Assembly (NCBI GenBank): GCA_001657295.1 | Contig: LYSW01000010.1 | Location: forward strand, 1 to 54,629 | Source of the DNA: Oceanicaulis sp. BBD 1991-10 | GTDB taxonomy: Bacteria > Pseudomonadota > Alphaproteobacteria > Caulobacterales > Maricaulaceae | Direction: 5' to 3' | Length of the DNA stretch: 54,629 nt | Part shown: positions 33,598 through 38,818 of the stretch, piece by piece | How the letters are laid out: each line of letters begins with the position of its first letter | Position numbering within the stretch: the stretch's first letter is position 1 | Translations under genes and position numbers: made by a program | The notes under the pieces: generated by a model | What the model saw: only the letters and a program-made list of their open reading frames with translations | What the model was told of the DNA's origin: nothing | The model's database searches: none

Positions 33598-34329
33598 ATG
33601 CGCATTCGTCCCGGAGACCCGATCGGCGCGGCCGCCCGCCGCGACACCGTCAGCGCCCCGTCCAGGACAGGCTCGGCCGGCGCGTCGGCGTCCGCCGGCG
33701 GCGCGTCCGCGACCCAGGACACCGCCTCCATCATGGGCGTGCCGGAAAGCGAATTGACGCCGAATGTCCAGCGCGCCCTCCTGTCTTTGATGGGCGAGGT
33801 CGATCAACTGCGCAAGGAAACCGAAGCTCTTCGCGCCAAGATCCGCGATCTGGAGAGCCTGGCCGACCATGACGTCTTCCTGCCGGTCCTGAACCGCAGG
33901 GCCTTCCTGCGCGAGGTCTCCAAGGCCCTGGCCCTGGCCGAGCGCCATGATGCGCCCTCCGCCCTGCTCTACATGGATCTCAACGGCTTCAAGCACATCA
34001 ACGACACCCATGGTCACGCCGCTGGCGACACCGCGCTGCGCCAGGTTGCGGAATTGATCGCCGCCCATGTCCGCGAGACCGATGCGGTCGGCCGTCTGGG
34101 CGGGGACGAATTCGGCGTGGTGCTCACCCTCACGCCCGCCGCCGCGGCCGAACGCAAGGCGGAGGAATTGGCCGAAACCATCGCCAGCACGCCGATCCTG
34201 CATGAGGGCGTCGAATTGCGCCTCGGCGCGGCCTGGGGCGTGCGCGCCCTGGACGCGAATGTCGATGTTGAAACCGCCATGGCGGAAGCGGATGCGGCGA
34301 TGTACGCGCGCAAGATCGCGGCGGCTTAA
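33598..34329 (+). CDS. Diguanylate cyclase (GGDEF) with coiled coil
   Basis: Makes cyclic di-GMP from two GTP. 243 residues: an Ala/Ser-rich N-terminus, a short coiled coil (~60-90: LMGEVDQLRKETEALRAKIRDLESLAD), then a GGDEF domain with LLYMDLNGFKHINDTHGHAAGDTALRQV and the active-site RLGGDEFG (168-172). The inhibitory site R-x-x-D (RETD, 159-162) is five residues before it, so product inhibition is expected. No TM segment. The layout resembles the cytoplasmic Caulobacter DgcB type (from memory of the family). GGAGG lies 7 nt before the ATG. Confidence 0.93.
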   Translation: MRIRPGDPIGAAARRDTVSAPSRTGSAGASASAGGASATQDTASIMGVPESELTPNVQRALLSLMGEVDQLRKETEALRAKIRDLESLADHDVFLPVLNRRAFLREVSKALALAERHDAPSALLYMDLNGFKHINDTHGHAAGDTALRQVAELIAAHVRETDAVGRLGGDEFGVVLTLTPAAAAERKAEELAETIASTPILHEGVELRLGAAWGVRALDANVDVETAMAEADAAMYARKIAAA

Positions 34330-35255: not shown

Positions 35256-35747
35256 TTACACGTTTTCAAGAGCGTCGAAAACGGTCTGGACGAAATGAGC
35301 CGCCGGCGCCGCCGTCCCGAGCCGGGCCGCATAGGATTCCAGACAGGCCAGCGCCAGGGGGCGCAATTCGCGTCGTCCATGCTCCGGACAGCTGCGGGAC
35401 AGGCCTTCCAGCGCCAGCTGCTCGAGCCGCTCCGCCTCCAGCTCGCAGGCCAGCACCTTGCGGCGCAGGCTTAAGGCGTTGTCGCCGCCGGCCCAGTCCG
35501 GCGGGTGTTTCAGATGATCGCGGGCGGCGCGCAACGGCTTGACCACGCGCGCGCTCCACAGGGCGGACCGGTCGATGGCTTCACCAAAGGCCGGCCTGGG
35601 ATCACGGCCATAGACGATCGTCCAAACAATCCACAGCGCGAGATTGACGTCCAACCCGTCCGCCTGCAGCGCGAGACAGGCCTCTTGAACGCCGTCCTGG
35701 GCGTAGACCGCTTTGGAGAAATCCCAGAAGGCCAGGCGGGGCGTCAT
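35256..35747 (-). CDS. TIGR02444 family protein
   Basis: 163 residues resembling the TIGR02444 (DUF2390) family: N-terminal FWDFSKAVYAQDGVQEACLALQADGLDVNLALW, middle ARVVKPLRAARDHLK, and LRRKVLACELEAERLEQLAL. Function is not established. Helical, cytosolic, no signal. Its start overlaps the end of the upstream channel-like gene by 4 nt (ATGA), so the two are translationally coupled and may act together. Confidence 0.82.
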   Translation of the reverse strand: MTPRLAFWDFSKAVYAQDGVQEACLALQADGLDVNLALWIVWTIVYGRDPRPAFGEAIDRSALWSARVVKPLRAARDHLKHPPDWAGGDNALSLRRKVLACELEAERLEQLALEGLSRSCPEHGRRELRPLALACLESYAARLGTAAPAAHFVQTVFDALENV

Positions 35748-38700
35748 TCAGAGGCCCTGGCCGAGCGCCCGTCACCGGCTTCAAAAAGCTCGAAACACGC
35801 GGCGAAAATCAAAAGATCGCCCTCCTGCACCTCGGTCTGGCGAATGCGGTCATTGATAGAGGTCCGGAAATGATAGTCAAAATCGCCGGTGCGGTTCCGC
35901 AGCACCTCCTGCATTGTTTTGGGAAGCCATCCCAGCAAGCGCAGCCCGCGGACCCGGTATCCAAGAAGGCCGGCGTAAGTCTGGCCGATCAAAGGATCGC
36001 CGGGCGCGACGTCGTGGGCGAAGAGATGGGTTCCGTCGCGCATATTCATGATCGCCACAAGATAGTCGTGCACGGCGTTGCCGTCGGCGGCTTCTTTGAC
36101 CAGGAAGCGTTCGACCAGCGTGGAACTGGGCACGATGGTGTCCGCAATCGCATCATCGTCGGCCTCGCCGGCGGAAAATGCGTCGCGGTCATTGGCGCTG
36201 AGAACTTCCGCGGTGATCCTGCAGGACCACTTGGCCCGCCTTGCGTGTTCCCGGATCAGCTTACTGGTCAACAGCGTTCCCGCGTCGATGGCGCGAATCG
36301 CATCGGCGGTCGCCGCTGAGTGACGCGCTTGCGCCGAGGCCATGACGATGGCGTGGTCGAACGCCGCGTCGTCCGGCAGGCACCGCTCAAGGCGCTCGCG
36401 AGTCAGGAAGGGGCTGTCCTCGATCGCAATGCGGTGAATGACCGGGTCCAGGTGAAAGGCCTGCAAATTCGCCTGCAGCCGGTCAAGATGGGCGGTGGAG
36501 CCATAGAGCAGGAAACGCTTGCCGCGCGGGCGCTTGAAACTCAGTTGCGCCGGCGTGACCGGGTCGGCCGGCTCAGACGCGGCGCCGCGCCTGGCACGGG
36601 TGATCAGGCTTCTCTGGCTCGCCGAGTAAATCACCGTATCGCTTGCAGCCAGTCGCCGGTCCATGTCGCCGGGGTCGACCAGAGGACGCACCGGACCCTC
36701 AGCGGAAATCTCGGCCTCGTACGCCGCCTCCCGGTCGTCGCGCGCCTCGACCAGACCAATAAGGTTCAGCCCGCGCGCCATGAGTAAGGATTCGAGCTCA
36801 GCGACGGACATATCGACGGAAATCAAGGGGTCTTGCGCGGCGAGATCCTGGACTGCGATCCCGTAAATCTCGTCGAAGACGTCGTAGGTGAGCACCTCGA
36901 AGAGAAAGTCGATCAGACGCGGGTGAATGGTGCTGAGCGCCGCCGCCTTGGCGACAATGACGTCCGGCGTGATCAGCGTCCGGCACCCGAAAGACGCAAA
37001 ATGATCGGCGTTCTGGGAGAAGGCCAGCTCAGCCGAGACGCCGATCTCAGGATTGAGCCGGCGTAAATTCATCGCCGTCAGCACCGCACCGAGATTCTCG
37101 CTTTCCCGCCTGGCATAGTCGGCGAGAATGATCGCGTGCTGCGCTCCCTCCGCATTGGCGAGCGAAAGCACGTCTTTTTCGGCGCTGTCGCCGCGCACGA
37201 AGCGGACCCGAGATTTGTCGAACCGATTGCCGGTGAAGGGCGTCGCTTCGCCGGACTCGGCGATGATGCAGACCCGGCGTTTATTCTCGGCGTCGTCAGA
37301 GGTGATCGCATAGACCAGGCCGTCGAGCTTCTCATTCCAGCCGCAGACCAATATATGGTTCCGCCAGGACAGCGCGTTCGGCGCGAGTCCCGCCTCCACC
37401 CTGGCGTTGCGGCGCGCCCAATAGCGCACGCCCCATATGATCGCCCATATCGGACCGGTGACCCCGACCAGCGCGAGAGCGGCGACGATGAAGCGCCCCG
37501 CGACTGTTGCTGGAAATGCGTCGTTCTCCGTGAAGCCGCTCGAGACATAGGTGAGCATCCACATGAAGCCCTCGCGCAGGGTCAGCTCGAGAAACGGGCT
37601 GTCCAGATTGAAGTTGCGCGCATGCTCAGCTTCAACCCAGCGCAGACAGACGAGAAATCCCAGCAGCAAGGCCGCAAAGACGCTTAAGCCGACAAACCAG
37701 GAGCCGACCGGCGCCCAAAGATCGATCGCCGTCTGCAGCCCCGCCCAGCGGCCCCGGCGCTCGAACCGGCCCCCGGTTCGGCTGTAATTGGACTGCGCGT
37801 AAAACGCGATCAGGCTGAACGCGAACAGCAGCACCCAGGCCGCCCCGCCCCAGGCGACATAATTCGGCCTCGGGTCGGCGTGTCCGGATGCGATCAGCAG
37901 GGCGCGGGTTCGAGGGTGAACCGGAAACGGCTCGCTCTCCGAAATGAAGCCTTTCGGCGGCCACAGGCCGGGAAAAATGCGCGACAGCGCCGCCCACTCG
38001 GAAATGAGGGCCTGGGATATCGCCTCGACGGTTTCGCGATCCGCATCCGATCCCGCAAGCAAAAGGCCTCGCACGGCGATGGTCTCATACTCGCCGTGCG
38101 ACGAGGTCATGAACGCCGTCTCATAATAAGGACGGCTCGCGCTGAGCTCGCGGATCAGGCGCTCCGGCGGCGCCAAAAGCCGCATTCGCTGGCCGCGCTC
38201 GCGAAAGTCCGAGGCGCTCGTCACGATCATGGCGTCGATCTGACCGCCGTTAAGCGCGCTCAAATTGTCCTCGATCGATCCCGCCTGCACCATCAGGGAG
38301 ATGCCGGGAACCAGCCCGGCCTCTTCGAGGAGTTCGCGGGCGTTGAGCGCGCTGCCGGAACCGGGCAATCCAATGCCGACAACCCGCTGGCGAAGGGCGC
38401 CAAGCGATGTCGGCGCCGCCGGTTCGTCTCGCACGACGATTTGAACATATTCCGGAAACAGGGGCGCGATCGCGGTGAATCCGCGCCATCGCTCAAACTC
38501 GAAATTTCCAAAATACTGGTGGTGCGCGATATCGCTCTGAACCACCGCGAATTGAAACGCGCCGCTCTTCAGCCCCTGGAGATTCTCGCGGCTGCCGGCG
38601 GTCTCCACGATAACGGGCGGGCCGCCATCGAGCTGCTCTGCAAGCCGGACGACAAACTCATGGTAGCGGCCGTCAGGGTCGCCCGCGCCGATGCTGGCCG

Positions 38701-38767
38701 GCGCGGCTTCGCCCTGGGCGACGGCGCCGCCCAGAAGGGCCACGGCGCCAAGCACAGCCGCAAACAT
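35744..38767 (-). CDS. TAXI binding domain - ion channel pore - double RCK fusion
   Basis: 1007 residues with an unusual domain order. Signal peptide (~1-21); a TRAP-TAXI solute-binding domain (~25-295: VETAGSRENLQGLKSGAFQFAVVQSDIA, VGIGLPGSGSALNARELLEEAGL); a TM segment (~306-325); TM2 (~357-376); a pore-loop region (~391-416) with SSGFTEND where K+ channels have TVGYGD, followed by PATVAGRFIVAALALVG, which resembles the inner helix start of K+ channels; TM3 (~425-447); RCK/TrkA-N-like domain 1 from ~470 (NHILVCGWNEKLDGLVYAI) and a second from ~750 (KRFLLYGSTAHLDRL). So a periplasmic ligand sensor is joined to a cation pore and cytosolic nucleotide- or ion-binding RCK gates. Start: ATG at 38767, with GGGAG 8 nt upstream. 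Ion, ligand and oligomeric state are unknown. Confidence 0.85.
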   Translation of the reverse strand: MFAAVLGAVALLGGAVAQGEAAPASIGAGDPDGRYHEFVVRLAEQLDGGPPVIVETAGSRENLQGLKSGAFQFAVVQSDIAHHQYFGNFEFERWRGFTAIAPLFPEYVQIVVRDEPAAPTSLGALRQRVVGIGLPGSGSALNARELLEEAGLVPGISLMVQAGSIEDNLSALNGGQIDAMIVTSASDFRERGQRMRLLAPPERLIRELSASRPYYETAFMTSSHGEYETIAVRGLLLAGSDADRETVEAISQALISEWAALSRIFPGLWPPKGFISESEPFPVHPRTRALLIASGHADPRPNYVAWGGAAWVLLFAFSLIAFYAQSNYSRTGGRFERRGRWAGLQTAIDLWAPVGSWFVGLSVFAALLLGFLVCLRWVEAEHARNFNLDSPFLELTLREGFMWMLTYVSSGFTENDAFPATVAGRFIVAALALVGVTGPIWAIIWGVRYWARRNARVEAGLAPNALSWRNHILVCGWNEKLDGLVYAITSDDAENKRRVCIIAESGEATPFTGNRFDKSRVRFVRGDSAEKDVLSLANAEGAQHAIILADYARRESENLGAVLTAMNLRRLNPEIGVSAELAFSQNADHFASFGCRTLITPDVIVAKAAALSTIHPRLIDFLFEVLTYDVFDEIYGIAVQDLAAQDPLISVDMSVAELESLLMARGLNLIGLVEARDDREAAYEAEISAEGPVRPLVDPGDMDRRLAASDTVIYSASQRSLITRARRGAASEPADPVTPAQLSFKRPRGKRFLLYGSTAHLDRLQANLQAFHLDPVIHRIAIEDSPFLTRERLERCLPDDAAFDHAIVMASAQARHSAATADAIRAIDAGTLLTSKLIREHARRAKWSCRITAEVLSANDRDAFSAGEADDDAIADTIVPSSTLVERFLVKEAADGNAVHDYLVAIMNMRDGTHLFAHDVAPGDPLIGQTYAGLLGYRVRGLRLLGWLPKTMQEVLRNRTGDFDYHFRTSINDRIRQTEVQEGDLLIFAACFELFEAGDGRSARASE

Positions 38768-38818
38768 TAGATCGCTCCCTTGGCGGTTGTCCAAGCGAGC
38801 CGAGCTTATATCACAAGT

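Follow-up and report, generated by a model that had tools for sequence, protein, structure and literature searches.

The fusion gene and its relatives

The DNA analysed here, hereafter the window, is a stretch of 54,629 nucleotides from Oceanicaulis sp. BBD 1991-10 (contig LYSW01000010.1). On its minus strand an open frame at 35744-38767 encodes a product of 1007 amino acids, followed by a stop codon, in which a TAXI solute-binding domain is joined to a channel-like membrane part and RCK domains. The start is the ATG at 38767; an in-frame TTG nine codons 5' of it is also possible. An earlier reading of the letters alone, the sequence-only reading, had proposed a signal peptide, an uninterrupted TAXI domain, membrane segments with a K+-channel-like pore and two RCK domains in one frame. 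The frame is borne out, its strand now being given as minus; hydropathy finds the hydrophobic N-terminal stretch of the signal peptide, and the TAXI match is indeed continuous and lies ahead of all three membrane helices. The chain opens with the signal peptide and TAXI, continues with helices 1 and 2, the P-loop-like segment and helix 3, and ends with RCK1 and RCK2; the coordinates are as follows.

38775..38781, minus strand: AAGGGAG, resembling a ribosome-binding site, just 5' of the ATG (by eye)
35744..38767, minus strand: whole gene, 1007 amino acids, TAXI, three membrane helices with a P-loop-like segment, RCK1 and RCK2 (open frame and near-full-length homologues)
38705..38767, minus strand: signal peptide, about residues 1-21 (hydrophobic stretch, by eye)
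37883..38704, minus strand: TAXI solute-binding domain, residues 22-295 (Pfam, NCBIfam and PDB profile matches)
37793..37861, minus strand: membrane helix 1, residues 303-325, probably running from outside to inside (hydropathy)
37721..37792, minus strand: putative cytosolic loop, residues 326-349, with 5 K/R and 2 D/E (charge count)
37640..37720, minus strand: membrane helix 2, the outer pore helix, residues 350-376 (hydropathy)
37520..37639, minus strand: outer loop, pore helix and filter segment, residues 377-416, with 2 K/R and 7 D/E (MthK alignment, charge count)
37520..37546, minus strand: filter segment V408-D416 (VSSGFTEND), in place of TVGYGD (family alignment, MthK alignment)
37427..37519, minus strand: membrane helix 3, the inner pore helix, residues 417-447 (hydropathy; aligned with the MthK inner helix)
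36698..37372, minus strand: RCK1, residues 466-690 (Pfam Slo-like_RCK above and TrkA_N below cut-off; MthK)
35798..36550, minus strand: candidate RCK2, residues 740-990, on weaker evidence (profile comparisons with locus L052, Foldseek on a low-confidence model)

The fusion is real, rare and conserved. The surveys of genome samples stayed within the phylum of the window. A scan of GTDB contigs with the whole protein, which detects close relatives only, returned five loci (four from Maricaulis, one from Oceanicaulis) with near-full-length matches and 47-51% identity in the best segment. The pore-RCK part occurs in 4 of 61 genomes (the window's own and its relatives), including 2 of the 15 from its own genus, and an order-wide profile search recovered it in 6 of 398 genomes and 3 of 59 genera, the own genome being counted in both searches. 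Two members from outside the family, L039 and L050, carry TAXI too, and TAXI is present in all eight distinct full-length pore-RCK sequences (the window, L031-L035, L039 and L050; L033 and L049 are the same gene). The alignment of seven fusions used below comprises the window, L031-L035 and L039. In a sample of the phylum (n = 398), seven matches reached E ≤ 1e-6: one from the own genome, one from another genome in the order, and five short ones to ordinary channels with two transmembrane helices (2TM) and an RCK domain, which have TVGYGD; in a sample of the class (n = 385) the own genome gave the sole match at E ≤ 1e-8. Neither sample contained the fusion outside the order. The genome survey suggested with the sequence-only reading finds the same fusion, restricted to this order in the sampled genomes. 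The order, phylum and class profile searches scored the best two or three candidates per genome, so the counts may be low.

A whole-protein search of another class sample (n = 190) matched 29 genomes; in the 28 that are not the window's own the match was in TAXI only, and none extended past query residue 347. Outside the own genome there were 33 TAXI places, and the loci of 29 were examined: 27 end at most 58 residues after TAXI, and at L022, where a short first piece is listed, the frame is of 339. None of these 29 non-own loci has a channel-like tail on TAXI. In a same-class genome, one stop-free frame of 692 codons (L019:1249-3324, minus strand) holds two TAXI-type copies; it was rejected as a further TAXI fusion, the second TAXI copy following the first. 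Spread by viruses or plasmids was likewise rejected: virus contigs (IMG/VR) gave no relative, and the one plasmid hit, from Priestia, aligns to 30% of the query and turns out to be an ordinary 2TM channel carrying TIGYGD.

In two close pairs of fusions purifying selection acts on all parts of the protein, most weakly on TAXI and most strongly on the pore. The ratio of nonsynonymous to synonymous substitution rates (dN/dS) is 0.15-0.16 for TAXI, 0.04-0.07 for helices 1-2, 0 and 0.05 for the P-loop with helix 3, 0.05-0.09 for RCK1 and 0.06-0.07 for the linker with RCK2.

The TAXI domain and its candidate ligand site

The homology of the N-terminal domain to TAXI proteins is established. NCBIfam model TIGR02122 (TRAP_TAXI) matches it with 91.9 bits, above the curated cut-off of 84.35, and Pfam NMT1_3 matches at an E value of 5.4e-19. 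Among solved proteins phmmer placed TAXI binding proteins nearest. First among them was 1us4, which bears the deposition name 'putative GluR0 ligand binding core' and is matched by the family profile at E 2.2e-40. In a tree with 29 solo TAXI proteins, the TAXI domains of the seven fusions group as a separate clade (100/100); they may have a single origin, with which this tree is compatible without proving it. The fused domain is the sole TAXI match in five of six genomes, genome G700 having two more.

In the glutamate site of VcGluP, Y45 and Q93 are key determinants and S75, E125, Y200 and M201 make further contacts, according to the available text of PMC11574862. PDB chain 8s4j was taken as VcGluP on the agreement of its residues and their spacing with that paper, and not from a database record. 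Profile alignments carry Y45, S75, Q93, E125, Y200 and M201 over to Y35, S59, Q77, E106, V182 and T183 of the fusion protein. Y35, Q77 and E106 are invariant in all seven fusions, and position 59 is S or T. V182 and T183 are also invariant (7/7), yet unlike their VcGluP counterparts, so that the second aromatic residue of the VcGluP site, Y200, is a valine throughout. The likeness to TAXI proteins such as VcGluP and TtGluBP (1us4) thus covers the whole domain and key ligand residues, whereas those proteins are separate and serve transporters. Sensing of an amino acid or an organic acid, as the sequence-only reading had proposed, gains support because three residues that contact glutamate in VcGluP, a Tyr, a Gln and a Glu, are invariant here; as to the ligand itself, my best guess from the aligned residues would be a small amino acid or organic acid, with a glutamate-like compound as the first candidate.

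Predicted membrane topology, putative pore and RCK domains

Hydropathy predicts three membrane helices, roughly at residues 303-325, 350-376 and 417-447. In six of the seven sequences K/R outnumber D/E in the loop joining helices 1 and 2, and the outer loop is acidic in all seven. Two cysteines of the TAXI domain (alignment columns 44 and 71) are either both present (five of seven, L031-L035) or both absent (the window and L039), the pattern that a periplasmic disulfide would leave if both partners come and go together. Taken together, hydropathy, the charge pattern with its positive-inside rule and the co-varying cysteine pair suggest that TAXI lies outside and the RCK domains inside, and that the pore has the normal orientation of a K+ channel. 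Since helix 1 is present, an external binding domain can precede a pore of that orientation.

The joint homology of the pore and RCK1 to channels is also established. The pore-RCK family profile matches MthK, a Ca2+-gated K+ channel of the 2TM-RCK type, at E ~2e-11, and a single alignment covers pore helix, filter, inner helix and RCK1; the next match, at E ~1e-5, is the pore and RCK1 of BK (Slo1). Of the membrane segments with a pore loop that had been proposed, the three helices stand and a segment aligns with the pore loop of MthK, which argues against a membrane region lacking such a loop; the segment may be re-entrant. The alignment sets GFTEND opposite TVGYGD. Across the seven sequences the filter reads SGFTEND, SGFTENN or SGLTLQD, with S-G-[FL]-T constant: S410, G411, T413 and P419 are invariant, F412, E414 and N415 differ in L039 (E414/N415 being L/Q), and D416 differs in L035. 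A selectivity filter of the TVGYG type is absent from all seven. The filter has changed, and in that respect the sequence does not support the K+-channel-like pore of the sequence-only reading. A pore for Ca2+ or mixed cations is plausible, no more, by analogy with CASTOR, which likewise lacks TVGYG.

RCK1 directly follows the inner helix, the MthK alignment continuing from the pore into it. Pfam Slo-like_RCK matches it with 27.7 bits (cut-off 24) and TrkA_N with 22.5, under the cut-off of 23.8; phmmer against solved proteins matched the RCK domain of MthK weakly (E ~0.01). The Ca2+ ligands of MthK are D184, E210 and E212. Two of the three are kept, D184 and E210 corresponding to D550 and E580, invariant in seven of seven, and the position of E212 is A or N in all seven. 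Because the third ligand is replaced, Ca2+ gating of the MthK type appears doubtful. Besides this replacement and the missing TVGYG, the fusion protein differs from MthK in the putative second RCK of its chain, the extra membrane helix and the external binding domain. From BK it differs in showing no sign of a voltage sensor, in its filter and, again, in the external solute-binding domain.

A second RCK domain is proposed from profile alignments with L052, a bacterial CASTOR-like protein, and from Foldseek with a low-confidence model. Its profile is weakly similar to RCK1 (P 0.003) and to the RCK2 part of L052 (P 0.003), and RCK2 alone had no match in Pfam. A profile of the pore and both RCKs meets L052 at P 3e-6 with 88% probability, aligned through the RCKs and not the pore. 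L052 itself (L052:667-2592, plus strand) is a tandem-RCK protein of 642 codons with PF06241 and a pore segment without TVGYG; it matches the CASTOR structure at E 1.5e-51 and the DMI1 structure at E 3.2e-47. Among 115 genomes of the class searched for PF06241, one had a match.

CASTOR is described as a Ca2+-selective RCK channel with tandem RCKs and no TVGYG (PMC6697748, in the text available), and the CASTOR/POLLUX/DMI1 family (PF06241) shares with the fusion protein the filter that is not TVGYG and, if the candidate RCK2 is one, also the two tandem RCKs after the pore. The filters differ, however, SGFTEND here against ADS(A)GNHA there. CASTOR has four transmembrane segments and a soluble domain, an external binding domain going unmentioned in the available text of the same source, whereas the fusion protein has three helices and TAXI. 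Membership of the CASTOR/POLLUX family was rejected: Castor_Poll_mid (PF06241) matches neither the fusion protein nor anything in its own genome, and L052 aligns with it through the RCKs but not the pore.

Structure prediction, at low confidence, adds weak support. With the full-length model, all 43 Foldseek matches at E ≤ 0.001 were Slo, MthK or CASTOR, two of them labelled only 'ion channel' or 'potassium channel'; BK (Slo1) ranked first over 794 columns, and the CASTOR gating ring aligned over 492 columns, gaps counted. With a model of the pore-RCK1 part MthK came first, and the best 50 of 79 matches (E ≤ 0.001) were MthK, Slo1, GsuK or entries labelled simply as channels.

A proposed ligand-gated channel and its alternatives

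The explanation that I favour, and hold to be probable if far from certain, is an inner-membrane cation channel gated by a ligand, with a TAXI sensor outside and a BK/CASTOR-like ring inside. The periplasmic TAXI domain would close on an amino-acid or organic-acid ligand, and its closure would pull on the pore via helix 1 and the cytosolic loop. The pore would be built by helices 2 and 3 with the P-loop, four subunits contributing to each, and the eight RCK domains of the four subunits would form beneath it a ring that responds to a cytosolic signal by opening or biasing the gate. Such a channel would integrate an external nutrient signal with an internal one. The conducted ion is probably not purely K+, because SGFTEND replaces the TVGYG filter.

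Several observations weigh against this reading. The charge rule fails in L039, whose helix 1-2 loop has 3 K/R and 3 D/E. None of the Pfam ion-channel models matched the protein, and the membrane part alone finds its best solved channel, KCNQ3, at E 1.4, though in register at the pore; it is therefore contiguity with RCK1 that carries the kinship of the pore. SGFTEND is not among the filters of known selectivity. RCK1 is clear, but RCK2 is weaker than the sequence-only reading took it to be: alone, it matched no PDB sequence up to E 10, and plain blastp against L052 yields only E 0.061, at RCK1. The AlphaFold models have a mean pLDDT of 41 for the whole protein and 46 for the pore-RCK1 part, both low in confidence, so that the Foldseek results lend weak support; ranks 1-43 with the full model have TM-scores of 0.10-0.23 by query length and root-mean-square deviations of 8 to 29 A.

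Some of these observations would suit a non-conducting sensor, in which the channel fold is kept, the pore is degenerate and the TAXI signal is relayed via the RCKs to a cytosolic partner. The loss of the K+ filter signature, the replacement of E414/N415 by L/Q in L039 and the failure of the membrane part alone to match channels significantly all fit this alternative. By contrast, the P-loop with helix 3 has the lowest dN/dS of the parts measured in the two close pairs, and S410, G411, T413 and P419 do not vary; because a dead pore should drift, this conservation speaks against it, and I consider a non-conducting sensor unlikely. A ligand-gated K+ channel with an unusual, yet K+-selective, filter is quite improbable. 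Its nearest solved relatives are K+ channels, and the five ordinary 2TM-RCK proteins that the same profile retrieved from the phylum sample have TVGYGD; but TVGYGD is missing from all seven fusions, with GFTEND in its place in the MthK alignment, and CASTOR, again an RCK channel without TVGYG, is Ca2+-selective according to the available text of PMC6697748.

Less credible still is a membrane-tethered binding protein that passes its ligand to a separate permease while the pore-RCK part regulates uptake. DctM-type matches occur elsewhere in all six genomes searched, a symporter gene of the sodium:sulfate/citrate type adjoins the fusion gene in L035, and TAXI-GltS, in the available text of PMC12344293, shows TAXI serving other transporters. 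However, no permease was identified next to the gene at the window's locus or at L034, the identified neighbours vary by locus, and channels are built in just this order of helix, P-loop, helix and RCK. A partnership of TAXI with a nearby TRAP system was rejected: the eight window genes scanned (32.9 to 42.5 kb) include neither a permease nor a TRAP component, and all four DctM matches in the own genome are on contigs other than the window's contig C5; the absence of a TRAP transporter nearby that had been noted from the letters is thus upheld for these genes and this contig. Finally, an assembly or frame artefact joining two genes, named with the sequence-only reading as its possible undoing, has a negligible probability and is ruled out by the homologues, the full-length fusion recurring in five further genome records and two genomes from a different family, with purifying selection on either side of the junction in the two close pairs.

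Like GluR0 and the prokaryotic ionotropic glutamate receptors (iGluRs), the proposed channel joins a periplasmic solute-binding fold to a P-loop pore; these receptors are not known to carry an RCK domain. The resemblance to GluR0 raised earlier holds as an analogy only. In prokaryotic iGluRs the binding domain is in two sections that flank membrane helices (PMC2950845, in the text available), whereas TAXI is uninterrupted here; the pore of GluR0 sits upside down compared with that of K+ channels (PMC13099474, likewise), whereas the topology suggested above is that of a normal K+ channel. Judged by sequence, the protein is not an iGluR, nor a K+ channel by its filter, nor a member of the CASTOR family by PF06241. 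A bolder hypothesis, which I offer tentatively and regard as rather doubtful, is that of a separate bacterial invention: within the order of Maricaulis and Oceanicaulis, a transporter-derived TAXI domain would have been joined to an RCK channel with an altered filter, giving a nutrient-gated (glutamate or organic acid) receptor-channel for Ca2+ or mixed cations that also reads a cytosolic signal through a BK/CASTOR-like ring and owes nothing in its design to iGluRs.

No description of a fusion of TAXI to an RCK channel was found in the open-licence papers searched. The words TAXI, TRAP and RCK do not occur in the available text of a survey of prokaryotic glutamate receptors (PMC2950845), nor the word channel in that of the TAXI-GltS paper (PMC12344293). 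The TAXI-GltS fusions of Lachnospiraceae that the latter describes join TAXI to a membrane protein that is not of the TRAP type; unlike the protein proposed here, GltS is a symporter and no channel. If the fusion protein conducts, it would represent a second, independent evolutionary route from a periplasmic binding protein to a ligand-gated channel, and would tie nutrient sensing directly to bacterial ion flux. It would then be a compact model for the coupling of two gates, since a single chain would be gated both from outside and from the cytosol, and its filter would offer a fresh sequence on which to probe ion selectivity in the K+ channel fold.

At the loci examined the gene appears to act alone. 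In the window, a gene for a UbiX-type flavin prenyltransferase lies upstream, and downstream the start of a DUF2390/TIGR02444 gene (35256-35747, minus strand) overlaps the last four bases of the channel gene, which suggests translational coupling in this genome. A conserved operon was rejected, as tblastn found neither gene in eight relative locus records, two of which, L033 and L049, are of one gene and several of which have only ~1 to 1.5 kb of flank. The neighbours in relatives are an RlmL-like methyltransferase in L034, FtsK ~3 kb upstream in L033, and a major facilitator superfamily protein and a symporter in L035; the last, the sodium:sulfate/citrate-type gene (L035:8958-10415, minus strand), stands tail to tail with the fusion in Oceanicaulis HTCC2633. 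Near the fusion gene in the window, on the other strand, is a gene for a GGDEF diguanylate cyclase (33598-34329, plus strand) without a further Pfam match.

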